From Bacteroidia bacterium (GTDB lineage Bacteria; Bacteroidota; Bacteroidia; UKL13-3): a stretch of DNA of 43,229 nucleotides. Numbering within the stretch: position 1 is the stretch's first letter; the number at the start of each line of letters is the position of its first letter. The notes under the pieces were generated by a model. The model saw only the letters and a list, made by a program, of their open reading frames with translations. It ran no database searches and was not told where the DNA came from. Positions 4,581-38,424 of this stretch are shown here, one piece after another. Position numbers and translations under genes: made by a program. The DNA is taken from assembly GCA_014376805.1 (NCBI GenBank), contig JACMQU010000173.1:1-43229 (forward strand), read 5' to 3'.

Positions 4581-4736
4581 GGGTATTTATTTATAGATTA
4601 TAATAATTTATGGAAAGCAATTATACTACTATACCTTGTTAAATTTCAACGATATAAAATAAAGTTTGTTATTTCTGAACCATCGTCTGTTAGAAAATTG
4701 TTATTTAACAAACTGCAAATAAATTTTGAAGTATAA

Positions 4737-5672: not shown

Positions 5673-5790
5673 ATAATAAATTTTGAATAAAAATGCTGAG
5701 GAATTTATATTTTTAAATTAAGAGTAAAGTAGTTATCCTTAATTAAATTGAAATTCTTAACATAATGTTCTGTTTTTAACTTATTTAATT

Positions 5791-6579
5791 ATGTTTGGTG
5801 TTCAAAAAACAACATTGTTAAATATCTTTTTTATAGGTAGTGGCAAACTTGCTCATAATCTTGCTATGGCATTTTTACAAACAGGCGATATTCATATTGC
5901 CGGTGTTTATTCCAGAACCCCTGCACATGCCAAAGCATTTGCTGTTAAATTTAAAACTATTGTATTTAACGAGATTAAAGATATTCCGGCTAATTGTGAT
6001 GTTTATTTTCTTGCTGTATCAGACACTGCCATTCAAAGTATTTCCGATCAATTATTAGTAACTGGTATTGTAGTGCATTGTTCGGGTTTAATGCCACTGA
6101 GTGCCTTATCTGCGCAATTGCATAAAGGTGTTTTCTGGCCAGTTCAAACCTTTAGCGGGGCATATGAATTAGAATTCAAAAACATTCCTGTTTGTATTGA
6201 AGGCAATGAGGAAGAGGATTTAAAAATTATAGAGGCTGTGGCACACAGAATCTCTAAAAACGTATTGCGTGTAAAGGAAAAAGAAAGGCAACAATTGCAT
6301 TTAGCTGCTGTAGTTGTAAATAATTTTACTAATCACCTTTTTGTGGTGGCCGCAAAATGGTTACAAGAAAATAATCTTAATTTTGATTTATTGAAACCTC
6401 TTATAACTGAAACTGCCAATAAAATCCTGAAGGTACCACCTTATTTGGCTCAAACCGGACCTGCCAGCAGAAAAGATTTAGTTACTATAGCAAAACAGGA
6501 AGAATTATTAACCTCCAACCCATCTTTACTCAAAATTTACCGATTAATAAGTTCAGGTATTATGGATAACATAGAATAG
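5791..6579 (+). CDS. Rossmann-like / DUF2520 domain protein
   Basis: A 262-residue cytosolic protein with two domains. The N-terminal Rossmann-like domain (about 8-125) opens with NIFFIGSGKLAHNLAMAF, a GxGxxA-type dinucleotide loop, and has AVSDTAIQSIS and HCSGLMPLSAL as in short dehydrogenases of the NADP oxidoreductase F420-like fold. The C-terminal helical DUF2520 domain (about 130-255) carries HLAAVVVNNFTNHLF and TGPASRKD, which fit the family. Relatives look like ketopantoate/pyrroline-carboxylate reductase-type enzymes, but no substrate is established. The ATG at 5791 leaves a short leader before the first beta strand. A secreted protein gene follows 21 bp downstream. Confidence 0.88.
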   Translation: MFGVQKTTLLNIFFIGSGKLAHNLAMAFLQTGDIHIAGVYSRTPAHAKAFAVKFKTIVFNEIKDIPANCDVYFLAVSDTAIQSISDQLLVTGIVVHCSGLMPLSALSAQLHKGVFWPVQTFSGAYELEFKNIPVCIEGNEEEDLKIIEAVAHRISKNVLRVKEKERQQLHLAAVVVNNFTNHLFVVAAKWLQENNLNFDLLKPLITETANKILKVPPYLAQTGPASRKDLVTIAKQEELLTSNPSLLKIYRLISSGIMDNIE

Positions 6580-6600
6580 CTTATATTCGTTTTATAAATT

Positions 6601-7860: not shown

Positions 7861-8249
7861 TAAAATTTATGTCCTCATTAAGCACCAAATTGTTAGAGCC
7901 GAACGCCACACAGGCAATAAAAAGTCCAAAAGAATCTAATAATAATTGTGCTTATTACAAGTTTGTTAAATAATTTTTCGCTTTTTTATTAAACATTTTT
8001 ATTTTATCCAGGAGTCTGTTTTATCCATTCAGGCAGATAAAATAAACCTTAATCCACCAGTCAGATAGGTTTTACGTAAAAATTAAGAAAAATTTTACAA
8101 TTGTCTAAAATAAATTATATATTATTTAATATCAATTGATTATCGTTATAAAAGTAGAGCAATAGAAATAATAATTAGTTAAAATATACCATTTTTAACG
8201 CTATAAAACCAATATATTAGCATATTATTGTTATTTAGATTATAATTTT
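7861..8249. other. Intergenic region without a gene; AT-rich inverted repeat
   Basis: No open frame of note was found on either strand. The only structure seen is an 11-bp inverted repeat, TTTATTTTATC at 7998-8008 and GATAAAATAAA at 8036-8046, with a 27-nt spacer that repeats TTTTATCCA. It could act as a weak 3' end for the upstream gene, but there is no T-run after it. Confidence 0.4.
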
Positions 8250-8257
8250 TACATTTG
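8227..8257 (+). promoter_or_regulatory. Bacteroidota-type promoter for the 81-aa membrane protein
   Basis: The -7 box TACATTTG at 8250-8257 fits TAnnTTTG exactly. ATTG at 8227-8230, exactly 19 nt upstream, differs by one base from the -33 TTTG. The start codon lies 25 nt downstream. Confidence 0.65.
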
Positions 8258-8282
8258 TATTGTAAAAACAACAGCATACAAT

Positions 8283-8528
8283 ATGAAAACAACTAAAAAC
8301 CCACAATCCAAAGGCATTCTAATTACATTAACTTTTATAGCTTTATTTTTTGTTTCATTAATAATATTACTTGTAGCAGATGTTGATGCAGGATTATTTT
8401 TTGAAGAACAGGTAACGGGAGCCATAAATTCTCAGATAGATGCCAGGGTAAGTGAAATTAGTACTGCCGGTAATATCGCCTCAACTACTTCCAGTAATGA
8501 ATTGTTTTACGAGTTAGGTAAAAAATAA
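8283..8528 (+). CDS. 81-aa single-pass membrane protein, unknown function
   Basis: I do not recognise this protein. It starts with a short basic segment (MKTTKNPQSKG), then one clear membrane helix of about 21 residues (ILITLTFIALFFVSLIILLV, residues 12-31). A soluble, mildly acidic tail of 50 residues follows, with VTGAINSQIDARVSEISTAG, likely helical. The tail would face the periplasm or cytosol; orientation by the positive-inside rule puts the N-terminus in the cytosol. It stands alone, with a near-consensus promoter 25 bp upstream and a rho-independent-like terminator 53 bp downstream. That makes it a real single-gene transcript rather than a chance frame. Confidence 0.72.
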   Translation: MKTTKNPQSKGILITLTFIALFFVSLIILLVADVDAGLFFEEQVTGAINSQIDARVSEISTAGNIASTTSSNELFYELGKK

Positions 8529-8580
8529 ATATATTCTACATAAGTCGGCTTTCAACCATAAATACCAATTATATTCGAGT

Positions 8581-8610
8581 AAGGGAAATTATTTAACAAT
8601 TTCCTTTTTT
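8581..8610 (+). terminator. Rho-independent-like terminator
   Basis: Stem GGAAATT (8584-8590), loop of 7 nt, and AATTTCC (8598-8604), followed at once by six T (8605-8610). Three outer A-T/G-T pairs can extend the stem. It lies 53 bp after the 81-aa gene. Confidence 0.65.
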
Positions 8611-8736
8611 GCTTTATAGTGGGGCAGAATTATTTTATAATTTAATTAGAAATATTTTCAACAATAAAAAAGAAGCTCGATAACCTTAGGCTTATCATTT
8701 AAATGAGAAGCAGAGTAGTAAGAAATATCATAATCA

Positions 8737-9741
8737 CTATAAAAAACTTTTAAAGCCAATCACTTCTCTACATTCCTTTAAGGTATTAGCTGCACTTTCT
8801 TGTGCTTTTTCTCTACCTTGTTTTACAACCTTAGCAAGCAGCTTATTGTCTGCTTGAAGCAGGGTTATTTTTTCGCGTATCGGAGATAGAAAATTAATCA
8901 AATCTTCGGCAATGTCTTTTTTTAAGTCGCCATAGCGGATACTACAATTTGCGTATGCTTTTGTGTAGTGCGACAACTTTTCATCTGTGGAAACAATCTT
9001 CATCAGGTTAAATAAATTCTGAACCGCTTCAGATGGAATTGAATCCACCATTAGAGGGCCGGTTTCTGTAACAGCTTTACTCATTTTTTTTCGAATTTGT
9101 TCAGGTGTATTTATCAGGCTTATAACATTTGCATCACCATCGCTTTTACTCATTTTACTACCACCCTGCAAACCTGGAATTTTAATAAGGTTATTGCCAT
9201 AATTAAATGCATAGGGTTCAGGAAAAATTTCTTTCTCATAAATCCGGTTAAATCGATTTCCAAATGTACGTGCCATTTCCAGGTGTTGCTCCTGATCTTT
9301 GCCTACAGGCACTTTACCCGCTTTGTGTATGAGAATATCTGCTGCCATTAAAACAGGGTAAGTTAATAGGCCTGCATTCAAATTATCAGGCTGCGTGCGC
9401 GCTTTTTCTTTAAAAGAGGCTACCCGTTCCAACTCTCCCTTATAAGCATGCATATTTAGCATCATATATAATTCCGGTATCTGTGGCAAATCACTTTGTA
9501 TATAAAGCGTGCACGCATCGGGGTTCAGGCCACAAGCTAAATATTCAATGAGTACTTGCCGTACATTGTTGTGCAAATCTGCAGGATTGGGATGTGTGGT
9601 TAGACTATGGTAATCGGCTATAAAAAAATAGCAGGTATAATCATATTGCATTTTCACAAAATTTGTTACTGCTCCCATATAATTGCCTAGGTGCAGGTTT
9701 CCGGTTGGTCTAATACCACTAACTACAATTTCTTTAGCCAT
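8737..9741 (-). CDS. trpS: Tryptophanyl-tRNA synthetase
   Basis: A 334-residue class Ic aminoacyl-tRNA synthetase that charges tRNA-Trp with tryptophan using ATP. The HIGH-like motif is HLGN at residues 17-20 (after GIRPTGNL), and the KMSKS loop is intact at residues 196-200 (GGSKMSKSDGD). The segment DYHSLTT and the MAADIL helix fit the tryptophan pocket region, and the length matches bacterial TrpRS (about 330). It is cytosolic and monocistronic here: 208 bp separate it from the converging 81-aa gene and 164 bp from ndh. No regulatory leader or T-box-like structure was seen upstream. Confidence 0.97.
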   Translation of the reverse strand: MAKEIVVSGIRPTGNLHLGNYMGAVTNFVKMQYDYTCYFFIADYHSLTTHPNPADLHNNVRQVLIEYLACGLNPDACTLYIQSDLPQIPELYMMLNMHAYKGELERVASFKEKARTQPDNLNAGLLTYPVLMAADILIHKAGKVPVGKDQEQHLEMARTFGNRFNRIYEKEIFPEPYAFNYGNNLIKIPGLQGGSKMSKSDGDANVISLINTPEQIRKKMSKAVTETGPLMVDSIPSEAVQNLFNLMKIVSTDEKLSHYTKAYANCSIRYGDLKKDIAEDLINFLSPIREKITLLQADNKLLAKVVKQGREKAQESAANTLKECREVIGFKSFL

Positions 9742-9905
9742 AAGAATAATAATAATTGCCTGTATAAATTACCTGCAACTGCTACAAAGAAAGTTAAGTA
9801 ACAGTGAATTTCAATAAAATATTACTGCTTCAAACATGCCTTATAAAAACAAATTTTAAAATTGTTAAGCATATTGGCTGGCCGCTGTATTTATGCACAA
9901 GTACA

Positions 9906-11150
9906 TTACTTTACTTTAGGATTTTTAAATATAAGTCGTAAAGAGTTATCGTTGGTTAAATAATTCCAACCCCAGTTAATAAAAATCATTAATTTATTAC
10001 GTACACTCAGAATCAGCATCAGGTGTAAAAACATCCAAACAAACCAGGCAAGGTACCCACTAAATTTTATAAAGGGGAGTTCAACCACCGCTTTGTGTTT
10101 ACCAACAGTTGCCATTACGCCTAAATCTGTGTATTCGTATTCTTTCATGGGTTTTTGTTGAACCATGGCTATAAGATTTTTAGCAAGCCGATTTCCTTGG
10201 TTGATGGCAACATTGGCTAATTGAGGATGGCCGCCAGGATACTTCTCTGTTTTCATAAGGGCAATGTCGCCAATGGCAAAAATATTTATTTCGTCATTTA
10301 CTTTATTATACCTGTTAACAGTATATCGGTTACTTTTTGTAATAGCATCCGTGTTGATCCCATTTAATAAATTGCCCGTTACACCTGCTGCCCATATAAG
10401 GTTTTGGCAGGCAAGTAATTCGCCCGAACTTAATAAAACAGTTGCGCCGTCATAACTTTTTACAGTAGTATTGGTAATAAGTTGTACACCCAGCTCTTCC
10501 AAATATTTTCTGGATGCTTGCTGTGATTCTACAGCCATCTGGTTAAGAATATTAGGACTACCTTCTATAAGTATAATTTTTAGTTTTGAAAAGTTATGAT
10601 GGGGATAGTCTTTGGGTAAAATGTTTTTTTTCATTTCAGCAAAGGCTCCGGCCAGTTCTACACCGGTAGGCCCGCCTCCAACTAGTACAATGTTAAAAAA
10701 CGAATCTTCTTTTTTTGTAACGGCGTTTTCTAAATTTAAGAGAATCTGATTTCGAATTGTAATAGCCTCAAAAGTCGATTTCATTGTTAGGGAATGGGTT
10801 TCCAGTTCTTTGTTCCCATAAAAATTTGTTTTGCATCCGGTGGCAATTACCAGATGATCATACGTATAATTTCCGTTATCAGTAATAACACTATTCATTT
10901 TAGGATCAACGGACAATACATTACCCAGCACAAAATTAATATGCTTTAGTTTTTGCAATATTTTACGGAAAGGGAACGAAATATTTGAGGGTTCGAGCCT
11001 GGAACTGGCAACCTGATAAAATAGAGGTTGAAATTGGTGATGATTAACTTTGTCGATAAGAATTACTTCAAACAAATTAGCAGGAAGCCCCTTAGACAAG
11101 TGCAAACCGGCAAAACCTCCACCTATTATAATCACTTTTTTTTTGTTCAT
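9906..11150 (-). CDS. ndh: Type II NADH dehydrogenase (NAD(P)/FAD-dependent oxidoreductase)
   Basis: A 414-residue flavoprotein. An N-terminal FAD-binding Rossmann motif (IIGGGFAGLHLSKGL, residues 5-20) is followed by HHQFQPLFYQVASSRLEP, the family's quinone-site helix region. The second Rossmann motif for NADH is VLVGGGPTGVELAGAFAEM, and a late FAD contact FAIGDIALM is present. The C-terminal helices contain hydrophobic LAWFVWMFLHLMLIL, which anchors the protein to the inner membrane. Known reaction: NADH oxidation with quinone reduction, without proton pumping. It is transcribed alone, in the same direction as the lipid-like cluster upstream but 263 bp apart. Confidence 0.92.
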   Translation of the reverse strand: MNKKKVIIIGGGFAGLHLSKGLPANLFEVILIDKVNHHQFQPLFYQVASSRLEPSNISFPFRKILQKLKHINFVLGNVLSVDPKMNSVITDNGNYTYDHLVIATGCKTNFYGNKELETHSLTMKSTFEAITIRNQILLNLENAVTKKEDSFFNIVLVGGGPTGVELAGAFAEMKKNILPKDYPHHNFSKLKIILIEGSPNILNQMAVESQQASRKYLEELGVQLITNTTVKSYDGATVLLSSGELLACQNLIWAAGVTGNLLNGINTDAITKSNRYTVNRYNKVNDEINIFAIGDIALMKTEKYPGGHPQLANVAINQGNRLAKNLIAMVQQKPMKEYEYTDLGVMATVGKHKAVVELPFIKFSGYLAWFVWMFLHLMLILSVRNKLMIFINWGWNYLTNDNSLRLIFKNPKVK

Positions 11151-11414: not shown

Positions 11415-12935
11415 TTATTTAAGCATAGTATATAATTTATCGTAATCAATTTTTGAACCATGTCTCGGATCCTTTGGAATTTTATTGATGTAATTAATTT
11501 TGGCTGTTGCAATAACAGGAATTACACTTTGTAAATAAGCACGGTATAATAATTCATTAAAGTTCTTTTTCACTTCGAGTATGATATAACATTTGGTTTT
11601 TAAAAAAAAAGCCGCCTCCACAACGCCTTCAAATTGTTTTAAAAGGTGCTCCATTATATAAGTATACAGGGCCTGATTTTTCAATACAAAACTCCATTTA
11701 CAACGGCCCAGTAAAAGCAATTCACCGGTTTCCATTAACATGCCCGTATCGCCGGTGCGGTGCCAGATTTGGTCATCAACTTTTATTTTATTGCGTAATA
11801 CTGCAGCCTGGTCAAATAAATAATGTTTCAATACATGGTGGCCACTCACACAAATTTCGCCAGCGTTAGCTAAAGGCAATGCTTTATTTCTCCACTCTTC
11901 TGTGGTTTGAACCGAAATGCAATCATCCACATATTTAATAACCTGTATTTTAATTTCAGGGACCGGAGTACCAATATAAATTCCATTAAAATGTGGGTTA
12001 TTTTCATGGTAATTCAGGTATTCATTTAAATTGCAGGCAGCTATAGGTTCTGCTTCTGTAGAACCATATAAAATTACCATATCTGCTTTGGGTAATACTT
12101 GTTTTAACAACAATGCTTCTTGTGGATACAAGGCTGCGCCGCCAGTTACGTATGAGTTAACCAGAAGGTTAGTGGAGTTATTCTGTTTTATATTTAAAGC
12201 CAGTTTTAGCAGGAAAGAAGGTGAAGCAGTAACCGAACCCACCTTGTTTTTTTGAAGCATGGTAATCAGTTTGCCTGCTTCAAAAAGAGTGGGCTTACGC
12301 ATCTTTTTTGCAGGGATCACATTTGTTTTGCCCAGCCCTAAGTTTAGTAACATAACTATAGGTAGGGTAGTAAGGCTGATTTGTTCTTTTACCGGTACAT
12401 ATTTTTGTAATGCATTAAACTGTGCCTGCAAAAAACCATGTGTACGATCGGCTGCTTTTGGAATGGAAGTACTACCAGTAGTAAAAGTTACTAAAGCACT
12501 GTCATTTAATTCCATTTTTTCAACCTCTGTATAAGCCATTGTAGCTTGTTCTGCTGCTTTTAACTTAACAGGAATACTCCTGATTTCTTTAATAAAAAGT
12601 CCGGCTAATCGTAAATAGAAGGGGGCTATAAATCCTTTACATTGTGCATGCCTGCAACAATCACGAAGTCTTTTTCTTCCAGCCCATTCATCCATAAAAA
12701 CGGCTATTGCCCCAATCTGGAATAAGGCCAGCACAACTCTATATAAGTCTGTACTTACGGGTACAAATACCATTACCCTGTCGCCTTTTTTTATTCCCTT
12801 ACTTTTAAAATAAGCTGCTGTTTTTTGTATTGATAAATTGAACTGAGCATAGGTTACCTGCTTTGCATTTTCAATTATAGCAACAGTGTTTGGCTTGGCA
12901 TTTACCGCTTCAAGAAAATAATGGATAATGTTCAT
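11415..12935 (-). CDS. Acyl-AMP ligase / AMP-dependent synthetase, OleC-like
   Basis: A 506-residue ANL-superfamily enzyme that should activate a carboxylate as acyl-adenylate. The P-loop-like A3 motif is FTTGSTSIPK (151-160), A5 is YGSTEAEPIA, A7 is HRTGDTGML, and the A10 lysine is K495 in DPRHGSKIDY. The YGSTEAEP and IPKDPRHGSK signatures look closer to the OleC/beta-lactone synthetase branch and fatty acyl ligases than to acetyl-CoA synthetase. There is no carrier domain. It lies 163 bp downstream of the six-gene operon on the same strand, so it may belong to it or have its own promoter. In that setting it could supply activated fatty acid for the acyltransferase. Substrate is unknown. Confidence 0.82.
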   Translation of the reverse strand: MNIIHYFLEAVNAKPNTVAIIENAKQVTYAQFNLSIQKTAAYFKSKGIKKGDRVMVFVPVSTDLYRVVLALFQIGAIAVFMDEWAGRKRLRDCCRHAQCKGFIAPFYLRLAGLFIKEIRSIPVKLKAAEQATMAYTEVEKMELNDSALVTFTTGSTSIPKAADRTHGFLQAQFNALQKYVPVKEQISLTTLPIVMLLNLGLGKTNVIPAKKMRKPTLFEAGKLITMLQKNKVGSVTASPSFLLKLALNIKQNNSTNLLVNSYVTGGAALYPQEALLLKQVLPKADMVILYGSTEAEPIAACNLNEYLNYHENNPHFNGIYIGTPVPEIKIQVIKYVDDCISVQTTEEWRNKALPLANAGEICVSGHHVLKHYLFDQAAVLRNKIKVDDQIWHRTGDTGMLMETGELLLLGRCKWSFVLKNQALYTYIMEHLLKQFEGVVEAAFFLKTKCYIILEVKKNFNELLYRAYLQSVIPVIATAKINYINKIPKDPRHGSKIDYDKLYTMLK

Positions 12936-13098
12936 TAATTAATATTAGGCTTTGCAAAATAATACCAATTGTTAGTATAAAATAGCTTAACAGTTTTTTA
13001 TGTTTAACCCGATAAAATTACTTAAGATTGTTATGACCATTCTCTAACTATCAATAGAATCCATATACATCTATTTAATTATTATAACCTGCATGATA

Positions 13099-14139
13099 TT
13101 AATTTTCAATAAGGGGTTGTTTAACCATTCTATTGTAAAGTGCGTATTCCCTTAGTTTTTCTCCGCTAAAAAATCCTGATAGATTTACAGATTTGTTATC
13201 CTGGTGCATAAAGGCATGGATAATGCGGTTGAATCCAAGACTGTTGGCAGCATCAGAAATATTTGCACACAAAACTTGTGCTATGCCATTATATTTTTTA
13301 TCGGGGTTACGGGCAACTGTCTTAACTATTAAAGTTTTATTTGTTTGATTAAAATAATCAGGGTAACCAACAACCAGCCCTATCAGTTCCTTTTCTTCGT
13401 TTTCAGCGAAATAAACAAAGCGTGTGTCCAGCCATTTTTTTTGTGCTCTGTATTTATCTCTAAAGTCTTCAAATTGGATAGGAGAGTATAAAAAATTATG
13501 AGCAAATGCACTTGTAATAAAGGGATATAATTTAACTATTTCCTGCTCAAAATTCGTCAGATCCATGTTGCGGATCGTCACTCCATTTTGTTTGAGCCGG
13601 GTTCTTAAAGGTTGTATTTTATCGGCCGCATAAGAAATGTTTGATTGCAGGTGCGTACTGTATTTTGCCAGAGTTTGAAAACCGGCGTCAATTAATAACT
13701 GTGCGTAGTATGGAGGCTGGTAAACTTCGGAAAAAAAAGTGGGATAATCCCAGTTTAATGCAATCCGATAATTTTCCCAGGTACTTCCATTCATCGGACC
13801 AATTATATTTTTTATGCATTTTGCAGCAGCAGCATTTATTACGGTATCGAATAAATGCCTGCATAACTCCGAATCATTTATACTCTCAAAAGCACCAAAG
13901 CACCACACACTTGTCTCTTCAGTAAAGTTTGGTTCATACACTACTAATCTTGCCAGAGGCTTGTTATCTCTGAATGCAATAAAGGCTGAAATTATTTTTT
14001 TTTCCGGAATGTTTAAGGCTCCCGATAAAGGCATTTTTGAAGAGTCGTAAATAGCATCAGTAACGGCTAAAAACGAAGACCAAAGGTCATTGTGGGGCAT
14101 GCAATGTTTTATGGTTATATTATTTAAGGTAGAGTTCAT
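13099..14139 (-). CDS. GNAT-like acyltransferase (YghO-like)
   Basis: A 346-residue cytosolic protein with a GNAT-type fold. The N-terminal half carries IIGPMNGSTWENYRIAL, a motif seen in YghO-like N-acyltransferases, followed by FSEVYQPPYYAQLLIDAGFQ. The C-terminal half holds the acyltransferase core: FVYFAENEEKELIGLVVGYPDYF, then KTLIVKTVARNPDKKYNGIAQVLCANI where the acyl-CoA pyrophosphate loop is expected, then the GFNRIIHAFMHQDN strand-helix. It is the last gene of the coupled operon; its ATG shares one base with the stop of the kinase gene (TAATG). In this setting it may acylate an amino group of a lipid headgroup. That role is inferred; substrate is unknown. Confidence 0.75.
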   Translation of the reverse strand: MNSTLNNITIKHCMPHNDLWSSFLAVTDAIYDSSKMPLSGALNIPEKKIISAFIAFRDNKPLARLVVYEPNFTEETSVWCFGAFESINDSELCRHLFDTVINAAAAKCIKNIIGPMNGSTWENYRIALNWDYPTFFSEVYQPPYYAQLLIDAGFQTLAKYSTHLQSNISYAADKIQPLRTRLKQNGVTIRNMDLTNFEQEIVKLYPFITSAFAHNFLYSPIQFEDFRDKYRAQKKWLDTRFVYFAENEEKELIGLVVGYPDYFNQTNKTLIVKTVARNPDKKYNGIAQVLCANISDAANSLGFNRIIHAFMHQDNKSVNLSGFFSGEKLREYALYNRMVKQPLIEN

Positions 14140-14807
14140 TAAAGAATATAAATATACAAAAGGAGAACCGCACTTAAAGGAATGAACAAGTTATCGAGTC
14201 CGAGCATGCTGAAGGCCTCACTTAATGTTGTTATGATGGCCAGGGAGATTACGAGTCCCATTTTTCTTAATTCTACAGGTAGTATAAAATAGCTAATTAG
14301 TAACGCTGTTACAAAAAAAGCGCTGCTTCCTCCGCATGATTTAGATCCCGGTTTCTGTGTGAATTTCTTTAGTGGAAATCTTTTTCCAATAATTGCTGCT
14401 GCCGGATCAGATAAAGTGAGAATAAGTAAGGGTATATAAAACAGAAAATAAGGTGGCGTAACAAATCGATTAATATTGAGGCTGTAAAAAAAAAAACTCA
14501 GAAATACCCCTAACGGATACACCATACTTCCATATGTTTTGCGATCAACCCCATTAATACCTTTTAAAAAATTAAAACGCATACTTAATTTAAGCAGCAC
14601 AAAAAATGAAATACAAATGGCCAGTACCCACCAGTAATTTGAAAAATAAACAGGAAACAAACACGCAAGCAAACCAGATAAAATATGTACTGTTTTACGG
14701 CTGTATTCAGGTGCTATTTTAACATAATAATAAAGAAAATCGCCTATAGCAAATATAAACAGGAAGCTAACAGAAAGAATCAGATACGCCATGATATCAG
14801 CATTCAT
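14139..14807 (-). CDS. Phytol/dolichol kinase-like CTP-dependent lipid kinase
   Basis: A 222-residue polytopic membrane protein with about six or seven helices, matching the SEC59/VTE5/DGK1-type kinase family. Visible signatures: SRKTVHI (R37, K38, H41), DRKTYGSMVYPLG (89-100), LSDPAAAIIGKRF (D134), PGSKSCGGSSAFF (K156-S161) and LSEAFSMLGLDNLFIPL (E197, D205). Known members use CTP to phosphorylate phytol, dolichol or diacylglycerol. The gene overlaps the upstream BtaA-like gene by 4 nt (ATGA) and the downstream acyltransferase by 1 nt, so translation is coupled. Together with UbiA in the same operon it points to a prenyl alcohol or lipid alcohol substrate. It might be labelled phosphatidate cytidylyltransferase by automatic tools. 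Confidence 0.8.
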   Translation of the reverse strand: MNADIMAYLILSVSFLFIFAIGDFLYYYVKIAPEYSRKTVHILSGLLACLFPVYFSNYWWVLAICISFFVLLKLSMRFNFLKGINGVDRKTYGSMVYPLGVFLSFFFYSLNINRFVTPPYFLFYIPLLILTLSDPAAAIIGKRFPLKKFTQKPGSKSCGGSSAFFVTALLISYFILPVELRKMGLVISLAIITTLSEAFSMLGLDNLFIPLSAVLLLYIYIL

Positions 14808-15865
14808 ATTTTTGTCTCCGTTATAAATTCTTTATAAAAAAATCCTTTGTCGATAAGTGCCGGGGGTGTTTGTTTAACAAAGTTTTGAGGGAACAAATCA
14901 GATAGCTTTCTCGTAACCATCAGATTCCAGTAGGCAAATTGGCTCTGCGGCCTGGTATGGGCTACCAGCATGTTGCCAAACTCCTTAAATGTTTTTAGGG
15001 GCATGTATTCAAAGATATTAGAAAAATTGAAATGAGAATAATTTCCGTTTAATTTAAGAGCCACCTCCGCATATCCTTCTTTCATTTCAAGCGCATCAAT
15101 ATTAAATTTAATTTTAAAAAAATTTTCTTCTCTCAAATAAAAAGGCAATCCATATGTAAATGATCCTAGTAACATATAGGCTAAAAAATAATTTGACTGA
15201 ACTTCTTTAGAAGATAAATGCAGCGCAGATCGATCATTTAAAAAAGAAGATACTTTTAAATCTACTTGTTCCAGAAATTCCGGATCGCGACCAAATGCTC
15301 CCAGCACATATCGGTTAAAGAAAATGCGGAACAACCATTTCCAGCGGTAATTATTCCAGGTATGATTATAAAATATTTTCTGTTGTAAGGCAGATTTAGG
15401 TTCAAACAATCTTCTGGTAATTTTTTTTGAATGGATAAGAGGCAGAATTATTTTTCCAAAACTTAACAGGTATTTTTCAAATTTACCTGCATAAATAATT
15501 CCATTTTCAATTGATACTGTTTGTTGATCCCAGTATATGCGCGCGTTTACAGTTAATTCATTCCGCAATAATTTATATATCTTCAGGTTCTTATTTGAAT
15601 TGGTTGTTAAAAATTTAAAGAATTCTTCATAAGTTAATTTTTTAATACAAAGTGCTTTTAATTCAGTCAGAAATAATTGTACAGGGTTAACATCTACCAC
15701 TGTTAATCGTTCAGGTGCAGCAGAGAGCATGGCTAATGAATTATCTCCTGCCGAAGCTACTGATAAGATCCGACAACCTGCAGGAAGTTGTAAGGCGGAT
15801 AGCAGCATATCTGCATCCTCCCAGCAGTTTGCATATCTTATAAAGTCAAACTTTGCTTTCAGCAT
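14804..15865 (-). CDS. DUF3419 / BtaA-like S-adenosylmethionine 3-amino-3-carboxypropyl transferase
   Basis: A 353-residue protein of the DUF3419 family. The N-terminus reads FIRYANCWEDADMLLSAL (residues 8-25), followed by the SAM-binding strand ILSVASAGDNSLAML (33-47) and the acidic VDVNPVQLFLTELKAL (57-72). Known family reaction: BtaA moves the 3-amino-3-carboxypropyl group of S-adenosylmethionine to the free hydroxyl of diacylglycerol, giving diacylglyceryl-homoserine. No BtaB-type N-methyltransferase is next to it, so a trimethylated betaine lipid is not directly implied. It overlaps the upstream dikinase-like gene by 7 nt and the kinase by 4 nt. The acceptor here may be another lipid alcohol (inference). 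Confidence 0.82.
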   Translation of the reverse strand: MLKAKFDFIRYANCWEDADMLLSALQLPAGCRILSVASAGDNSLAMLSAAPERLTVVDVNPVQLFLTELKALCIKKLTYEEFFKFLTTNSNKNLKIYKLLRNELTVNARIYWDQQTVSIENGIIYAGKFEKYLLSFGKIILPLIHSKKITRRLFEPKSALQQKIFYNHTWNNYRWKWLFRIFFNRYVLGAFGRDPEFLEQVDLKVSSFLNDRSALHLSSKEVQSNYFLAYMLLGSFTYGLPFYLREENFFKIKFNIDALEMKEGYAEVALKLNGNYSHFNFSNIFEYMPLKTFKEFGNMLVAHTRPQSQFAYWNLMVTRKLSDLFPQNFVKQTPPALIDKGFFYKEFITETKI

Positions 15866-18465
15866 CTTTCAATAATAATGATTTCTCCGGTAGCTCCGTT
15901 CATTTCAACAAGATCGCCTGACTTTAGCTGTTGCATTAATCCTGTTATGCCAACAATACAGGGCAGTCCCATTTCGCGAGATACAATGGCGGAGTGGCTT
16001 AGCATACTTCCTCTTTCTACCAGTATCCCTGCGGCCGAAACGAACAAAGGTACCCATCCGGGATCGGTACTTGAGGTAACCAGAATATGTCCATTCATGT
16101 GGGTTGCTTCATCTGCATGGTGTAATACTTTTACCTTTGCACGCACTATACCACTGCAGCAAGGAAGACCTTTTAAAACCTGTAGTTTATTTACAGGGGT
16201 ATTGTTTGATCCTAAAATTATATTTAAGTAAACTACCCCTTTGGCAACTATCCTTTCAGGCAACAAAATGTGTTCATACCCGGTATATGCTTTCTTTCGC
16301 AAGGCAGCAATCTCCATTAGTGCGGGGTGAACCGATTTGCCGTTGGCATAGTCTTCCAGCTCCTCAAAAGTGAGGTAAAATATATCATCTGCTAATTCTA
16401 ATACTTTTTGATGATACAGCTTTTTGCCGGCAGCATTACAAATTTTCCTCACCACACTATATGCTCTTGTTCGCTCATAACGCAAATTTTCGCGGTTACT
16501 TACAAAATATCTTGTTTGTTTTAATACATAGTTGAACAGCAATTTTTTAAATGGATTTCCTGCATTTTTTTTTGTTACAAACAGTTCTGCATCTATCCGC
16601 ATACGCAAACCGATATTATTAAATGCTGGTTGAAGATCTGCCAGTGTATTTCTTATCATAGCAATTAATTTTTCAGGAGCTTCTATGTACGTTTTAGTCT
16701 CTAGTTTTAGTTCGCCTACACAACGGGCTCCCCATTTTTCAAGGTATTGCTGAATGAGATTATTTGTTTGTGGATAGATACCTGTTTCCAGTAATTTTAA
16801 GATTTGTTCAGAACTATTATTTGTAAATAAATCTGAAGCGTTTTCGCTTTTTATGCTTTTAATAATAGCACTTAATAAAACAGCAGGGCCAGTAGAAATA
16901 ATATCATTTGAACCAATCAATAAAGCATTTTGTAAATTCTTAAACTCACCATATTTTTTATGATTGCACATTTTATTGAACATGCCATAAAAGACCATCG
17001 CAAAAAAATCATTTACCAACGGTGGCTTCCATTTTTTTAGCAGGTTTTGTTCATAAGTACGGTAATGAATTAATAGTTCAGTTAAACTTACAGAATCAAA
17101 ATTTAATGCCTGGTATTTGTCATAAATCAATTGAAAACCAGCCTGAAATTTTGTAGATTTTTCTTTAATTGTAAAAAGATTCCAAAGAATCCGAAGCACG
17201 GCATATATGATATCAAACCACTCCTGTGAATTTGATTTTTTTGGAATCTGGTGGTGGGTAAATTTCTCCTTAACACCCATCATTTTTTCCATAAAGGCAA
17301 CATTTAGTGAGTAACCGGGTAGTAATGCCAGCGCTCCATACCAACTGTTAAGGTTATAATAAACCCGGCCGTAAATGATGCCCAGCATGTTTGCATATTG
17401 AGGTGCATTTGCATTAATTACCTGTTGCCTGATTCCCATTACTGCAGAAAGTTGTTTATATACCGATTCGTACATTTTTGTAATAAAGGAGAAGGTAAGC
17501 GGCAGCGTTAATCCGGGATAAGATTCAATTATATTGCTATTGTCCCATACTGTTATTTTTTGGTCTGTTAAGGAAGGCTTATTAGCTTTAACCGCAGTTA
17601 CAGGCCTGGTCTGTAATAGGTATAATACCTCCTTTTCATAAGCAAATTCTATGTCTTGCGGGGCATTGTATTTGAGTGAAAGTCTATCTAACATATCACA
17701 GATTTTATACAGTTGCTGATCTGATAAACCTGGTTGCAGTTGTAGTGATAATGGCACTTTTATTTTTATCAGACCAAAACCTTTTTTTTCATCCAGCACA
17801 AATTTTTCTGATTTAACTGCCATATGTTTTTCTATGGCATTTTGTTCAGTTATTAAGTTTGTATGATTCACAATAAACTGATCAGCACTTAGGTAACCCG
17901 ATACAAGTCCTTCACCCAGGCCATATACTGCATTAATTATTTTTTCATCTTTACTGCCGGATACAGGGTTGATGCCAAAAGCCACGCCTGATACAGTTGC
18001 GTTAATCATTTGCTGAACTATAACTGCCATTTGAACGGGTTGTTCATCATTATAAACAGTTACCCTTTCGTTAAATCCAGAGAGCCATACTTCGCGGATA
18101 GCTTCATCTATATGCTCAAGCTGCACATATAACTTTGTTTGATACATACCGGCATAAGACTTTTCATCTCCATCTTCATTTGTAGCTGAAGAACGCACAG
18201 CAAATAAAGTATCCGGTTCAAACCGGCTTTTTAAAAAAGTAAGGAGGGATACCGGAAAATTAAAGTGCTTTATCAGAGAAATAGTTTTCTCCTGATTACC
18301 GGTAAATTCCTCACTAATAAAACCAGCTAACACATCTGCCGGGATCAATATAAAATGCGGTATATTAAATCCCTGATCCGATAGCTCTAACAGTCTTTTG
18401 GCCTTACCTCCAAAAAATTTCGGTTCCGCATAAACTTTATAGTTGTCCTCCGTAACCAGGTTCAT
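15859..18465 (-). CDS. PEP-synthase/rifampin-phosphotransferase-like dikinase
   Basis: An 868-residue three-part enzyme. Residues about 10-300 are a PPDK/PEP-synthase ATP-binding domain: GGKAKRLLELSDQGFNIP, FAVRSSATNEDGDEKSYAGM, and the end signature PQDIEFAYEKEVLYLLQTRP. Residues about 310-760 form a substrate domain starting DNSNIIESYPGLTLPLTFSF, unlike the TIM barrel of PEP synthase. Residues about 770-868 are the swivelling phosphohistidine domain, with GSMLSHSAIVSREMGLPCIVG and its His. Length and order match rifampin phosphotransferase, which uses ATP to give AMP, Pi and a phosphorylated alcohol. The lipid-type operon makes rifampin an unlikely natural substrate; a prenyl or lipid alcohol is my guess. 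Its ATG overlaps the ubiA-like stop by one base (TAATG). Confidence 0.82.
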   Translation of the reverse strand: MNLVTEDNYKVYAEPKFFGGKAKRLLELSDQGFNIPHFILIPADVLAGFISEEFTGNQEKTISLIKHFNFPVSLLTFLKSRFEPDTLFAVRSSATNEDGDEKSYAGMYQTKLYVQLEHIDEAIREVWLSGFNERVTVYNDEQPVQMAVIVQQMINATVSGVAFGINPVSGSKDEKIINAVYGLGEGLVSGYLSADQFIVNHTNLITEQNAIEKHMAVKSEKFVLDEKKGFGLIKIKVPLSLQLQPGLSDQQLYKICDMLDRLSLKYNAPQDIEFAYEKEVLYLLQTRPVTAVKANKPSLTDQKITVWDNSNIIESYPGLTLPLTFSFITKMYESVYKQLSAVMGIRQQVINANAPQYANMLGIIYGRVYYNLNSWYGALALLPGYSLNVAFMEKMMGVKEKFTHHQIPKKSNSQEWFDIIYAVLRILWNLFTIKEKSTKFQAGFQLIYDKYQALNFDSVSLTELLIHYRTYEQNLLKKWKPPLVNDFFAMVFYGMFNKMCNHKKYGEFKNLQNALLIGSNDIISTGPAVLLSAIIKSIKSENASDLFTNNSSEQILKLLETGIYPQTNNLIQQYLEKWGARCVGELKLETKTYIEAPEKLIAMIRNTLADLQPAFNNIGLRMRIDAELFVTKKNAGNPFKKLLFNYVLKQTRYFVSNRENLRYERTRAYSVVRKICNAAGKKLYHQKVLELADDIFYLTFEELEDYANGKSVHPALMEIAALRKKAYTGYEHILLPERIVAKGVVYLNIILGSNNTPVNKLQVLKGLPCCSGIVRAKVKVLHHADEATHMNGHILVTSSTDPGWVPLFVSAAGILVERGSMLSHSAIVSREMGLPCIVGITGLMQQLKSGDLVEMNGATGEIIIIERC

Positions 18466-19394
18466 TATTTTATCAGGTTTAGCATCATAGGTAAACCACC
18501 TAACAACAGGTACATTAACAAAGACCAGATGCCGGAAACTAACTCAATCCATTTAGCTTTTTTTGTAGTCTGTATTTTAAAAAATAAAATGGCCGGTAAA
18601 ATGGCAATGGCTAAAAGCAGAATCAGAATTACAAACATTAACTGCCCAAAACCGGCATACCAGGCTGCGGTAACAGCCGTAATAAAATTAGCCAACAACA
18701 AAGCACACCATAAAAAAATTGCCTTAGGTATTCCTAATAAATCTGTATAAGAAATTACACCATCTTTTTCATCTTCCGGGGCTTTTATTTTACGGCCTAC
18801 CTCAAGCAATACTCCATTGAAAAAAGAAACGATAAAAAAGAAAATTAGTCCTTGTGGTGCAGGTACTTCCTCCAGATACCAATCGAAAGAGGAAGTTATG
18901 AAATCAACTAACGGAATAATAAGCATATGTGAAATAACATACCAGAACTGATGCTTACGCAACCAATCTGCAATAAAAAACTCTTTAGACATGAGTAATA
19001 GATAAGCCATTACAGGAACATAAAAAAACAATAGAGATGATTCAAAAAACAACAAGAAACTTAGTTGTAAGCCTGCAGCCACAAAGCCGGTAAGGTTTAA
19101 TTCTCTTAGGGTAATTAATCCACGTGGCACCGGTAATTCTTTTCTGTATTTGGCGTCATCTTCCTTATCTTTAAACTCATCAAATACCCTTACCAGATAA
19201 AAGAAGAGAATTGCATTTAAGACCGCTATTAAATATGTTTTCGGTTCAACAAAACCATTAGCACCTCTGCAGATTCTTGAATAAGATATAACTGAAAAGG
19301 AGAAAGCTGCAATTAATAAAATATGTGTAAACGGAAATCTTTCTGAAAGATATTGTTTGAACCTCTTGTAAAAAGGTTGTTTAGTTGCCTGCAT
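18465..19394 (-). CDS. UbiA-family prenyltransferase
   Basis: A 309-residue polytopic membrane protein with about nine helices. The first aspartate-rich motif is RVFDEFKDKEDD, with Asp at a DxxxDxxxD spacing (about residues 72-80). The second is PEDEKDGVISYTDLLG (about 206-221), matching UbiA enzymes that bind Mg2+-prenyl diphosphate. I chose the ATG at 19394, one base after the HMG-CoA reductase stop; a TTG at 19409 would give five more residues and a 14-nt overlap. Known family chemistry: transfer of a prenyl chain to an aromatic ring, to glycerol phosphate ethers (DGGGP synthase) or to other acceptors. The acceptor here is not evident from sequence. It is second in the operon. Confidence 0.86.
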   Translation of the reverse strand: MQATKQPFYKRFKQYLSERFPFTHILLIAAFSFSVISYSRICRGANGFVEPKTYLIAVLNAILFFYLVRVFDEFKDKEDDAKYRKELPVPRGLITLRELNLTGFVAAGLQLSFLLFFESSLLFFYVPVMAYLLLMSKEFFIADWLRKHQFWYVISHMLIIPLVDFITSSFDWYLEEVPAPQGLIFFFIVSFFNGVLLEVGRKIKAPEDEKDGVISYTDLLGIPKAIFLWCALLLANFITAVTAAWYAGFGQLMFVILILLLAIAILPAILFFKIQTTKKAKWIELVSGIWSLLMYLLLGGLPMMLNLIK

Positions 19395-19395
19395 T

Positions 19396-20673
19396 TTACT
19401 TACGGCCAAAAATGCGGTGTGCTTTAGAAAACTGGCCTGAAGCCAATGCGGCAGCTATAGAAAGTTCCCCTGCCAATACAGTTGCACCGCAGATCTCAGC
19501 AAATTTTCTTGCTGTGCCAGGTCCGGTACACTCCAGTAAATCCAAACATTCATGTTGGGTAGTTAAACCTGTTCCACCTCCAACAGTGCCTACCATTAAA
19601 CTTGGCAGTGTAACTGCAACATAAAGATCCCCATCCTCATTTTTTTCCATTCGGGTTATGCCTACATACGCTTCGGCAACACAGGCAACATCTTGTCCGC
19701 AAGCTAAAAATATAGCAGTTAATCCATTGGCAAAATGCCCCTGAATTCCAATAGAACCACTCTGTACAGCAGCTACAGAAGAACTTTGCCAGTATTGCAC
19801 AATACCCGGCACATCAGAGCTCAGAACCTCTTTTACATATTGTTTTTTGATGACCGCTTCGGCAGTAACTTTTTTGCCACGTACACTGCTAAATGAAACT
19901 GCTGTTGCTTTTTTATCGCCTGAATAATTACTTTCTATAAACCAATGGGTAGGTTGTATGGGTGTATGTTCTATAATGTAAGTACAAATAGCTTCTGTAC
20001 AAATGGTAACCATGTTCTGCCCGGCAGCATCACCGGTAGTATATTCAAATATAATCACTACCTGATTACCTTCCATATTAAGCCTGAGATCGATTAATTT
20101 AGCAAAACGGCTTTTTCCTAATGTAATGGATTTAAATATATCAAGTTTATCAAGAATCCAGTACATAAAGGCACCAACCTCAGCAAGCCGGTGAAATCTG
20201 AAAAGCGGCGCTCTTTGAACTGTTTCGGTAAGGCACACAGAGGTAATACCACCGCTTAACCTGCAAGCTTTTGCGCCTCTGTTATAGGAGGCTATTAAGG
20301 CACCTTCTGTAGTTGCCATCGGAACATAAAAATCTCCATAAGCAGCTGTGCCTCGTATATACACAGGTCCAACTATACCGGTTGGCACCTGGGTCATTCC
20401 AATAAAAGATTCTATATTTCCTTTATATGTTTCAGGATCAGGCATAGGACTTTTACCAGAAAGCGAAGCTAAAGATTTATGCGTGCGGGATTCTAAAAAA
20501 TCCTGCCTCTTAGCTGCAGCTTCGGCCGACCATGAATTTTTTCCTGGAACATCTGGAATTACAGGGATTTCTATCTTCGAGTCTTCTGATAAAGACTTTA
20601 AGATTTCTTCAAAAGGCCGGGTTCTGTTATATAAACTGATAAGTTCTTTTGCTTTTTCACTAGAGGTTGTCAT
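19396..20673 (-). CDS. Hydroxymethylglutaryl-CoA reductase, class I-like
   Basis: A 425-residue cytosolic reductase without a membrane anchor. All four class I catalytic residues can be placed: E123 in MATTEGALIAS, K254 in SGDKKATAVSF, D328 in LACGQDVA and H419 in SGQFSKAHRIFG. Also present are TGDAAGQNM, near the nucleotide site, and VGGGTGLTTQHECL. Known reaction: HMG-CoA + 2 NADPH to mevalonate + CoA, the committed step of the mevalonate pathway. No other mevalonate gene (HMG-CoA synthase, mevalonate kinases, decarboxylase) is in the window. It is first in the operon. A hairpin-forming dyad lies 54 bp upstream of its ATG. Either it feeds isoprenoid supply or it reduces a related CoA thioester; the second is speculative. 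Confidence 0.92.
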   Translation of the reverse strand: MTTSSEKAKELISLYNRTRPFEEILKSLSEDSKIEIPVIPDVPGKNSWSAEAAAKRQDFLESRTHKSLASLSGKSPMPDPETYKGNIESFIGMTQVPTGIVGPVYIRGTAAYGDFYVPMATTEGALIASYNRGAKACRLSGGITSVCLTETVQRAPLFRFHRLAEVGAFMYWILDKLDIFKSITLGKSRFAKLIDLRLNMEGNQVVIIFEYTTGDAAGQNMVTICTEAICTYIIEHTPIQPTHWFIESNYSGDKKATAVSFSSVRGKKVTAEAVIKKQYVKEVLSSDVPGIVQYWQSSSVAAVQSGSIGIQGHFANGLTAIFLACGQDVACVAEAYVGITRMEKNEDGDLYVAVTLPSLMVGTVGGGTGLTTQHECLDLLECTGPGTARKFAEICGATVLAGELSIAAALASGQFSKAHRIFGRK

Positions 20674-20726
20674 AAATAATTGTTTAATTATTAAATGTGC
20701 ACAGGTTGGTGGGAAACAGTATATGC

Positions 20727-20760
20727 AACTTAATCTTATGCTAACATAAGATTTTAAGTT
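20727..20760. promoter_or_regulatory. Inverted repeat (operator or leader hairpin) upstream of the hmgR operon
   Basis: The left arm AACTTAATCTTATG (20727-20740) and the right arm CATAAGATTTTAAGTT (20745-20760) pair over 14 positions with a 2-nt bulge and a CTAA loop. The inner nine base pairs are perfect. It begins 54 bp upstream of the HMG-CoA reductase ATG, so it is either a dyad operator or a 5' leader hairpin. Confidence 0.5.
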
Positions 20761-21018
20761 TTAAATTCCCAGTTATTTCAACTATTTTATTGTGATAAGT
20801 TTAAAGTTTAAAAATAATTTTATGTTTTTTACAAAAAGGAGCAATAATATATAATCGTAAATAAGCTAATATTAATTTTAGTGAACAAATTTAAATAAAA
20901 ATGGATAGATGGGGTTATTGTAAAAGGGATTTGCTATTGGGGAATTTTTATAAATTTTATTAAAATATAAGAGCCAAAAAAAATACCCATGATGTAAAAA
21001 AAAACATTTTTATATTTA

Positions 21019-21054
21019 TTTGAGTCATATATGGGTAAATTTATTCTATATTTG
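21019..21054 (+). promoter_or_regulatory. Bacteroidota-type promoter for the 39-aa protein
   Basis: The -7 box TATATTTG at 21047-21054 fits TAnnTTTG exactly. A TTTG at 21019-21022 is the nearest -33 candidate, with a 24-nt spacer that is longer than usual. The ATG is 44 nt downstream of the -7 box. Confidence 0.5.
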
Positions 21055-21098
21055 GTTTGGACTTATTTCTGAGAGATAAAATCCAAATATAACAAACT

Positions 21099-21218
21099 AT
21101 GAATAATATATTTAGAGGCCTATTAGCAGGCTATGGTGCGAAAAAACTGGGTGGAGGATGCTTCTCTACCATACTTATTTTTATTGTGCTTTGGATAGCA
21201 TTAGGACACTGTAATTAA
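21099..21218 (+). CDS. 39-aa small membrane protein with GYGAKKLGGGCF motif
   Basis: A short frame of 39 codons with ATG and TAA. The first half reads MNNIFRGLLAGYGAKKLGGG, and the second half is one hydrophobic helix (FSTILIFIVLWIALGH) preceded by Cys and ending HCN. From memory, Bacteroidota carry tiny proteins with the same GYGAKKLGGGC...LGHC layout, which makes this more than a chance frame. It has an exact -7 promoter box 44 bp upstream. Function is unknown. The glycine/lysine-rich turn before a membrane helix suggests an inner-membrane peptide with a cytosolic head. Confidence 0.7.
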   Translation: MNNIFRGLLAGYGAKKLGGGCFSTILIFIVLWIALGHCN

Positions 21219-21789
21219 ATCTTTTTACAAACGTTGTATTGTTTAGGGGTGACAAAAAAAATCAGTACATTAAATTTATTGATTTTTTTATCTGAAAAGG
21301 TGATAAGAAGTTAAGCTTTTGGTTTTTTTTATTCTATTAAACCTCTTTATTAAATCAATATCGCCTGATCTAAAACTCCATTATATATTCCTTCTGATTT
21401 CAATGAATTTATAGTTTAACTTCTCATCATTTTACATTACATATCTGCAAAGCACTACCAGGCTACTGTAAATCTGTAACAATCTATCCGTATTTTTTCC
21501 GCCTGCTATGGTAAGTGTTTTCCAGACATTGAGTGGGCCACGGCGAGCAAAATTAAGTAACTAAAAATTATCTGCCATAAACAAATGTTTTGGGGTGGCT
21601 ATGGCTTGCAAATTTGAAATTTCAGATAAAGGAATATTTATACGCTTCAAGAGAAGCCGTTAAATAATTACTTAAACTTTGACGCAAATACCCCCTTTGA
21701 TGTCATATTCGCGCACCGCAAATTTATAAAAGATGTTGCATCTTTGTATGGTTAATTCAAATCAGGATTAATATAAAAAATTAAATAAA
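21219..21789. other. Intergenic region without a supported gene
   Basis: A minus-strand frame open for 42 codons (21432-21560, stop to stop) lacks an ATG and is not recognised; it may be a gene remnant. Near the end, AAAGATG (21729-21735) and CATCTTT (21739-21745) form a 7-bp inverted repeat 45 bp before the next gene and could belong to its promoter. Otherwise nothing is seen. Confidence 0.4.
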
Positions 21790-38414: not shown

Positions 38415-38424
38415 GTTATTATTA

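Follow-up and report, generated by a model that had tools for sequence, protein, structure and literature searches.

A recurrent seven-gene operon with HMGR-like, UbiA and BtaA-like enzymes, predicted to build an apparently undescribed bacterial lipid

Seven genes occupy positions 11415-20673 of a 43,229-nt stretch of DNA from a member of the Bacteroidia (contig JACMQU010000173.1, assembly GCA_014376805.1), which is called the window here. They form a packed block on the minus strand (Table 1), with coordinates and spacing that match those given by an earlier sequence-only reading. The HMGR-like and UbiA genes are separated by a 1-nt gap, with the UbiA ATG at 19394; a TTG at 19409 is a possible alternative start. 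Further along, the UbiA gene overlaps the RPH/PEPS-like gene by 1 nt, the latter overlaps the BtaA-like gene by 7 nt, and overlaps of 4 nt and 1 nt join the CTP-kinase-like gene to its BtaA-like and GNAT neighbours, while a 163-bp gap lies between GNAT and the AMP-ligase. Pfam families were confirmed above their cut-offs for six of the seven genes, the exception being the CTP-kinase-like protein. Upstream of the HMGR-like gene there was no match to a Bacteroidetes-type promoter pattern (3 matches overall against 2.8 expected), and an Rfam search gave no match.

Table 1. Genes of the seven-gene block, listed from the first gene onwards
Gene product	Position	Strand	Basis of assignment
HMGR-like reductase (first gene)	19396-20673	-	PF00368 389 bits, above cut-off
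UbiA-family transferase	18465-19394	-	PF01040 46 bits, above cut-off
PEP-synthase/RPH/PigC-like dikinase-fold enzyme	15859-18465	-	PF01326 187 bits and PF00391 82 bits, above cut-offs
DUF3419/BtaA-like protein, predicted SAM:3-amino-3-carboxypropyl transferase	14804-15865	-	PF11899 187 bits, above cut-off
Small multi-TM protein with CTP-kinase-like motifs	14139-14807	-	Motifs; no convincing profile match
GNAT-family acyltransferase	13099-14139	-	PF00583 27 bits, above cut-off
ANL-superfamily AMP-ligase	11415-12935	-	PF00501 133 bits, above cut-off

Including the window, 22 loci carry all seven genes together on one strand. The window's order is found in 18 of them, and in the other four, which belong to one genus, the GNAT-ligase pair is placed in front. 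Gene order in relatives had been chosen beforehand as the refutation test of the operon proposal, and it proved to be conserved; one-strand loci in this number, most of them in one order, put the association of the seven genes beyond chance. The order recurs in many distantly related bacteria, and mean pairwise protein identity across operon copies is 31-53%. BtaA relatives were present in 44 genomes besides that of the window, 13-20 kb being read around 13 of them, and a 4-kb stretch was scanned in genomes with both a BtaA relative and a locus. Scanning genome contigs with one sequence returned one locus, and a scan of viral contigs returned no relatives.

Among 395 genomes of the window's class, the BtaA type was detected in 24 at E 1e-60 and the UbiA profile in 24 at E 1e-30; 21 of the UbiA-positive genomes fell below 1e-70, and all 21 are within the BtaA-positive set. 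HMGR matches below 1e-120 were obtained in 22 genomes of the class, 20 of them BtaA-positive, and HMGR is less tightly bound to the operon than UbiA. In the window's family, the operon is present in 2 of 16 listed genomes (window included), and one copy lies on an alphaproteobacterial plasmid of Roseinatronobacter. Given this patchy presence and the plasmid copy, the operon is best read as travelling between lineages as a unit.

The sequence-only reading had assumed that the HMGR-like enzyme provides mevalonate, a view that neither its residues nor its hosts support. The catalytic Glu559, Lys691, Asp767 and His866 are kept in all 23 operon HMGRs aligned, with Glu scored in the 22 that cover its site (one member, L045, is a C-terminal part only). 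Lys735 (human numbering), the lysine for the HMG carboxylate, is absent from 23/23, and Ser684 is replaced by Glu in 22/22; the binding roles of both residues follow PMC9500038. Operon copies L088 and L089 show the same pattern as the others. Lys735 is also missing from 3/3 plasmid HMGR homologues and from 10/10 other non-operon homologues checked, so its loss marks a wider group. Judged by sequence, the operon HMGR lacks the features of mevalonate-pathway HMGR, and we infer that it no longer recognises HMG.

The hosts were counted in 25 genomes with an operon HMGR, drawn from 31 searched; G140, G356, G132 and G567 (no HMGR found), G601 (operon without HMGR) and G672 (BtaA and ligase only) were left out. 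With the lower mevalonate pathway judged from mevalonate-diphosphate decarboxylase alone, 20 of the 25 encode Dxr, which belongs to the MEP route, and show no clear decarboxylase. Four carry a decarboxylase, in each case below the family cut-off yet clear, and two of these four have a second HMGR; the remaining genome, 78% complete, has neither Dxr nor the decarboxylase. Absence of HMG-CoA synthase was dropped as evidence, since none of 11 genomes matched and mevalonate users were among them, which makes that search uninformative. The HMGR-like enzyme seems to have a new job outside mevalonate synthesis.

The first Asp-rich motif of UbiA, RxxDExKDxxxD, is invariant in all ten aligned members, variants included, and in the second region RK and a Glu are kept in 10/10 while the aspartates vary. 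A search with its profile gave matches to digeranylgeranylglyceryl phosphate synthase and to chlorophyll synthase. The RPH-like enzyme has an N-terminal ATP-grasp domain and a C-terminal swivelling His domain (SHSAIV), and the PigC/RedH natural-product ligases are among its relatives. Against NCBIfam, it stayed under the cut-off for each of the 25 models listed of 27 matched; for the rifampin phosphotransferase equivalog it reached 283.9 bits against a cut-off of 999.

The small membrane protein, likened to SEC59/VTE5 in the sequence-only reading, carries the motifs RKxVH, DxxAxxxG, Kx3G and DN. Nine members gave no convincing Pfam or NCBIfam match (scattered single-member matches, best E 0.013), and a PDB search with their profile gave none. 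The profile matched CdsA weakly and in register (E 0.014) and did not match CarS-like proteins (E 0.39), the latter being a low-power test in which CarS-like proteins themselves reached CdsA at only 0.072. An AlphaFold model from a two-row alignment had a mean pLDDT of 50. Dgk1 requires R76 and D177, according to PMC3486869, and these were paired by eye with R37 and D134 of the membrane protein. Its motifs and the weak CdsA match give a weak assignment as a putative CTP kinase.

No BtaB-type methyltransferase gene is present in the window's operon. A methyltransferase, BtaB-type by position, adjoins BtaA in L042 and L043, and the annotated inserted genes of relatives include one methyltransferase (L057). 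DUF3419 without a neighbouring methyltransferase makes a homoserine-type headgroup plausible, and GNAT together with the AMP-ligase makes its N-acylation plausible. The nearest NCBIfam model to the AMP-ligase is PRK09274 (294.9 bits, cut-off 478); the OleC model gave 149.3 bits against 900.

In two relatives the HMGR slot is taken by a fatty-acyl-reductase-type (FAR) protein (NAD_binding_4), and FAR-type and PSD-type (PS-decarboxylase family) genes occur in L038 and L039. L038 has a DAGK-type kinase where other copies have the membrane protein, and genes for a polyprenyl synthetase and an FMN_dh-type protein lie in its neighbourhood; elsewhere the kinase slot is filled by APH- or DAGK-type kinases. 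In the PEPS tree, L039 nests among operon members, in a tree where other long branches leave parts unsure. In related clusters HMGR-APH fusions adjoin CarS-like, PEPS, PlsC and desaturase genes, and the G601 operon is without HMGR and CTP-kinase-like genes while an HMGR-APH fusion lies elsewhere in that genome. L073 holds CdsA and a CDP-alcohol transferase within one operon, and L081 reads HMGR, CTP-kinase-like protein, desaturase, CDP-alcohol transferase and CdsA, with no UbiA, PEPS, ligase or GNAT gene nearby. The variants carry CdsA, CarS-like proteins, CDP-alcohol transferases, PlsC-type acyltransferases, desaturases and PS-decarboxylase family members, and together with the conserved order they support a lipid-type operon as proposed. 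Its mevalonate step finds no support, and the CTP kinase and the isoprenoid character of the product are tentative.

The reading we favour, at a probability of about one half, is a transferable lipid-biosynthesis operon in which an acyl thioester becomes a lipid alcohol that is phosphorylated, extended by UbiA, given a homoserine headgroup and probably N-acylated. The HMGR-like enzyme would reduce an acyl thioester lacking a distal carboxylate, most simply 3-hydroxyacyl-CoA/ACP, and the CTP-kinase-like membrane protein would phosphorylate the resulting alcohol. UbiA would then add a second chain, probably prenyl, in ether linkage, and the RPH-like enzyme would contribute a further ATP-driven phosphorylation (the least certain step). 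BtaA would move 3-amino-3-carboxypropyl from SAM to form a homoserine-type headgroup without N-methylation, and the AMP-ligase would activate an acid for GNAT to load onto the headgroup amine. The product would probably be an envelope lipid or aminolipid. Against this scheme, if the 1-hydroxyl is phosphorylated, the attachment point of BtaA's homoserine is hard to place.

Part of the same evidence bears on other products. In the isoprenoid ether lipid originally envisaged, mevalonate from HMGR would feed prenyl chains that UbiA attaches beneath a homoserine headgroup; the intact first Asp-rich motif, the UbiA profile matches, the polyprenyl synthetase and FMN_dh-type gene near L038 and the CarS-like enzymes of related clusters speak for it, but the loss of the HMG-carboxylate residues and the 20 Dxr hosts make it very unlikely. 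A search of 34 genomes for GGGP synthase (PF01884) gave scores above the cut-off in 26, the window's among them, and no match in seven that carry the operon (one of these incomplete), which suggests that the enzyme is dispensable and counts against that route. Fungal fusarinine siderophores contain a mevalonate-type unit that is activated by a ligase and then transferred. Mevalonate, or an analogue, could similarly be built directly into the product, with the AMP-ligase activating it and GNAT carrying out the transfer. This would account for HMGR in Dxr hosts and for the ligase-GNAT pair; it is equally hard to credit, given the missing carboxylate-binding residues, the fatty-acyl-reductase-type protein in the HMGR slot of two relatives, and L081, where HMGR sits among lipid genes with neither ligase nor GNAT nearby.

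Somewhat less improbable is a mimic of prenyl diphosphate, in which a 2-enoyl thioester would yield an allylic alcohol, phosphorylated twice by the CTP-kinase-like and RPH-like enzymes, and UbiA would transfer the alkenyl chain to a BtaA-decorated acceptor. For phytol, VTE5, VTE6 and UbiA make up such a two-kinase chain. The mimic would explain two kinase-type enzymes beside UbiA and the HMGR/fatty-acyl-reductase swap, but in L081 HMGR and the kinase are kept and no UbiA or PEPS gene lies close by. That the product is not a membrane lipid but a small natural product for secretion, resembling a lipoamino acid or a siderophore, is improbable to a like degree: the patchy, transferable distribution, the PigC/RedH relatives of the PEPS-like enzyme and the proximity of the ligase to PRK09274 fit it, but no carrier-protein, NRPS or PKS gene is among the annotated neighbours (part of the flanking genes), and the variants carry lipid enzymes.

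Several known systems share parts of the operon. The betaine-lipid pathway (BtaA/BtaB, DGTS) has in common the DUF3419/BtaA enzyme with its predicted 3-amino-3-carboxypropyl transfer from SAM, whereas the operon is without a BtaB-type methyltransferase and places BtaA among HMGR, UbiA, RPH-like, kinase-like, GNAT and ligase genes. Tocopherol phytol salvage uses VTE5, VTE6 and the UbiA-type VTE2, and a CTP-kinase-like membrane protein and UbiA are common to both; however, the operon adds HMGR, BtaA and the RPH-like enzyme, its seven-gene unit holds no aromatic pathway genes, and its kinase-like protein gives no convincing profile match to a named kinase family. With the archaeal ether-lipid pathway (HMGR, UbiA/DGGGPS, CarS, CDP-alcohol transferases), proposed for FCB bacteria also (PMC7852524), the operon shares the Class I HMGR fold and UbiA, and its sister clusters share CarS-like proteins and CDP-alcohol transferases. 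It departs from that pathway in its HMG-carboxylate residues, its apparently dispensable GGGP synthase, the fatty-acyl enzymes of its variants and its mostly Dxr-bearing hosts without clear decarboxylase. RPH, PigC and PEP synthase have the same ATP-grasp and swivelling His domains, but the operon's context resembles none of theirs. The ebo cluster (UbiA-297), as PMC9235831 describes it, was rejected since its partner genes differ. The consulted sections of the lipocone paper (PMC12419801) present other HMGR and UbiA contexts and not that of the operon.

No description of such an operon was found in the open-access literature searched, DUF3419 included (subscription journals lie mostly outside it), in agreement with the original impression that no described pathway has this combination, and the lipid made is apparently undescribed. 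What the operon suggests is a bacterial lipid of unknown class, together with a new role, outside mevalonate synthesis, for the HMG-CoA reductase fold, which is much studied as a drug target. With a compact operon and a host Roseinatronobacter that is sequenced and cultured (PMC10508151), the product could be reached experimentally.

In a broader and more tentative view, unlikely on present evidence, the clusters would define a lipid family that does without glycerol. The HMGR, neofunctionalised, would turn 3-hydroxyacyl thioesters into alkane-1,3-diols, and a kinase would give a lysophosphatidate-like 3-hydroxyalkyl phosphate; the second hydroxyl would be etherified by UbiA or esterified by a PlsC-type enzyme, and the headgroup added via BtaA (homoserine, N-acylated) or via CarS/CdsA and a CDP-alcohol transferase. 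A backbone other than glycerol, if true, would bear on the evolution of lipid backbones. In such a substrate an alkyl chain would replace the HMG carboxylate, and the lysine for that carboxylate is the one lost.

The operon comprises seven minus-strand genes, encoding an HMG-CoA reductase-like protein (HMGR), UbiA, an RPH/PEP-synthase-like enzyme (PEPS), BtaA (DUF3419), a small membrane protein with CTP-kinase-like motifs (CTPkin), a GNAT protein and an AMP-ligase. The genes, strand, gaps and overlaps described in the sequence-only reading are exact to the base, and Pfam backs its family calls for HMGR, UbiA, PEP-synthase-like, DUF3419, GNAT and AMP-binding proteins. In a phylum-wide sample of 395 genomes, 45 had a BtaA relative (E 0.001); with 13-20 kb around BtaA examined for 13 of the 44 besides the window, the seven-gene operon was found in 8 of the 45, window counted, and a variant in two (loci L038, L039). 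Among 395 genomes of the window's class, operon-type BtaA (E 1e-60) occurred in 24, from 19 genera, and 20 further neighbourhoods were examined. Altogether, 22 loci, counting the window and a plasmid copy, hold all seven genes on one strand; the expected conservation was borne out, since 18 share the window's order HMGR-UbiA-PEPS-BtaA-CTPkin-GNAT-ligase, and GNAT-ligase comes first in the other four (L034-L037, a single genus). Six more loci (L044, L058, L062, L065, L067, L070) follow the same order as far as the contig end, and in genomes G585 and G467 a second contig end holds the operon's first genes (L088, L089); five of the seven genes are present in L071, and only BtaA and the ligase in L076. 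Neighbours mostly overlap or nearly touch, with distances measured from the first possible start codon, and inserts of 0.4-3.6 kb interrupt the operons of L031, L057, L069 and L073. Mean protein identity between operons is 31-53%, so the order has survived deep divergence. The distances of the seven proteins show correlations of 0.71-0.94, high values that shared ancestry alone likewise gives. SRPBCC genes accompany the operon in 10 of 28 relatives.

Co-occurrence in the class genomes follows the same lines. The UbiA profile matched 24/395 at 1e-30; all 21 genomes with matches below 1e-70 were BtaA-positive, while variant clusters, that is, related gene sets with swapped members, are found in the remaining three (G427, G478, G517). 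HMGR matched 43/395 at 1e-30, and 20 of the 22 genomes below 1e-120 were BtaA-positive, the exceptions being a variant cluster (L081) and a locus where no operon partner was recognised (L080). Its distribution points to mobility: among 16 genomes listed for the window's family, window counted, two have the operon, and none of four others from its genus does. The plasmid copy (NZ_CP121116.1) belongs to Roseinatronobacter sp. S2, an alphaproteobacterium whose source is an alkaline spring (PMC10508151); its HMGR extends past the record start, leaving the C-terminal 174 residues visible.

The earlier statement that HMGR gives mevalonate is not supported. Four of the 25 genomes with operon HMGR do have a mevalonate-diphosphate decarboxylase, at 156-164 bits, below the family cut-off of 171, but 20 have the MEP-pathway enzyme Dxr and no clear decarboxylase (one, G641, has an 18-bit match), and one incomplete genome has neither. 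G158 and G064 have the decarboxylase, lack Dxr and carry a second HMGR too divergent for alignment at the sites below. When 23 operon HMGRs were aligned with one archaeal and one plant HMGR (human numbering), Lys691, Asp767 and His866 were retained in all, and Glu559 in 22/22 covering the site. Lys735, which according to PMC9500038 forms a salt bridge with the HMG carboxylate, is missing in 23/23, and Ser684 is replaced by Glu in 22/22; L088 and L089 have the same pattern. Judged by these residues, the operon HMGR is unlike the mevalonate-pathway enzyme. The lysine is also missing in 10/10 non-operon homologues of class genomes (L077, L078, L080-L087) and 3/3 plasmid homologues outside the operon, so its loss belongs to a wider HMGR group. 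These plasmid homologues are from Vibrio, Alteromonas and Sinorhizobium (L047, L048, L049), the last lying between acyl-CoA carboxylase subunit genes.

Variant clusters link this reductase to lipids. L038 and L039 lack HMGR, as do their whole genomes, and carry a NAD_binding_4 protein of the fatty-acyl-reductase type together with a member of the PS-decarboxylase family; in L038 a DAGK gene is present and no CTPkin was found. L039 is nested among operon members in the PEPS tree, beside L034-L037 (support 100/96; several long branches make other parts unsure), so the reductase was likely swapped within the operon family. In L077 and L078, UbiA and PEPS occur alongside an HMGR-APH protein (split into pieces in L077), a protein resembling CarS (under the Pfam cut-off in L078) and a CDP-alcohol transferase. 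L085 and L086 have HMGR-APH, CarS-like, PEPS, methyltransferase, acyltransferase and desaturase genes, and a 204/246-aa membrane protein resembling, by eye, a degenerate UbiA. L081 reads HMGR-CTPkin-desaturase-CDP-alcohol transferase-CdsA, L079 has ligase-BtaA-APH facing UbiA-PEPS-GNAT, and the L073 insert contains CdsA and a CDP-alcohol transferase. The G601 operon (genome contamination 5%) lacks HMGR and CTPkin, and the genome carries an HMGR-APH fusion at a separate locus (L085). Together the swaps mark out slots for a reductase, an alcohol kinase, a chain transferase and a headgroup, and they connect the product of HMGR with lipids.

The kinase assignment of CTPkin is weakly suggested by motifs. 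The window's protein had no Pfam match at 0.01, and nine members searched at E 10 gave scattered matches only, each in a single member. The CTPkin profile matched CdsA weakly (E 0.014, probability 3%), the negative control UbiA at E 0.12, and CarS-like proteins, the expected match if the assignment is right, at E 0.39; this test has little power because the CarS-like profile itself reached only 0.072 against CdsA. CTPkin of L033-L037 and L045 has a C-terminal membrane extension of ~220 residues, with no Pfam match at E 0.1 in the two scanned.

From the slots, a reaction series can be proposed in which an acyl thioester would be reduced to a lipid alcohol and phosphorylated, UbiA would add a second chain, homoserine would come from SAM and N-acylation would be last; of all parts, what the RPH-like enzyme does is least certain. 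The boldest form, of rather low probability, would have an alkane-1,3-diol backbone; in its favour, the HMG carboxylate sits where such a substrate would have an alkyl chain, and the lysine lost is the one that binds this carboxylate. As to the archaeal ether-lipid pathway, GGGP synthase is widespread among the genomes searched but is not a requirement. The set lacks defining features of both the mevalonate and betaine-lipid pathways, and no publication on it was found in searches of open-access papers, within which the view that no pathway with this combination has been described stands. We file the operon as a putative new pathway type whose parts come from known families.

Positions of the operon and of side features
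Record	Positions	Feature
Window	11415-20673	Seven-gene operon, minus strand
Window	20674-21789	~1.1 kb between operon and next plus-strand gene; no ORF of at least 90 aa bar one antisense overlapping HMGR; Bacteroidetes-type promoter pattern looked for, not found
Window	26140-27315	Di-haem cytochrome c peroxidase (MauG-type) gene
Window	38335-42311	Transglutaminase-core gene, then DUF3857 gene
L041 (G194)	7249-10161	BtaA homologue after long-chain fatty aldehyde decarbonylase-family protein (52 bits) and protein with Shikimate_DH match just below cut-off
L084 (G712)	2628-7851	PEP-synthase-like gene near nucleotidyltransferase-type and thymidylate-kinase-type genes

BtaA and PEP-synthase-like genes also occur in other contexts. 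The decarbonylase and Shikimate_DH-type pair of L041 is reminiscent of the cyanobacterial alkane pair. The arrangement in L084 recurs in L050 (Streptomyces durmitorensis plasmid), an unrelated record. On a Rhizobium plasmid (L052, CP041205.1), a DUF3419 gene is lined up with genes for ketoacyl synthase III, an oxidoreductase, an MBL-fold protein and a CoF-synthetase, possibly another DUF3419 pathway.
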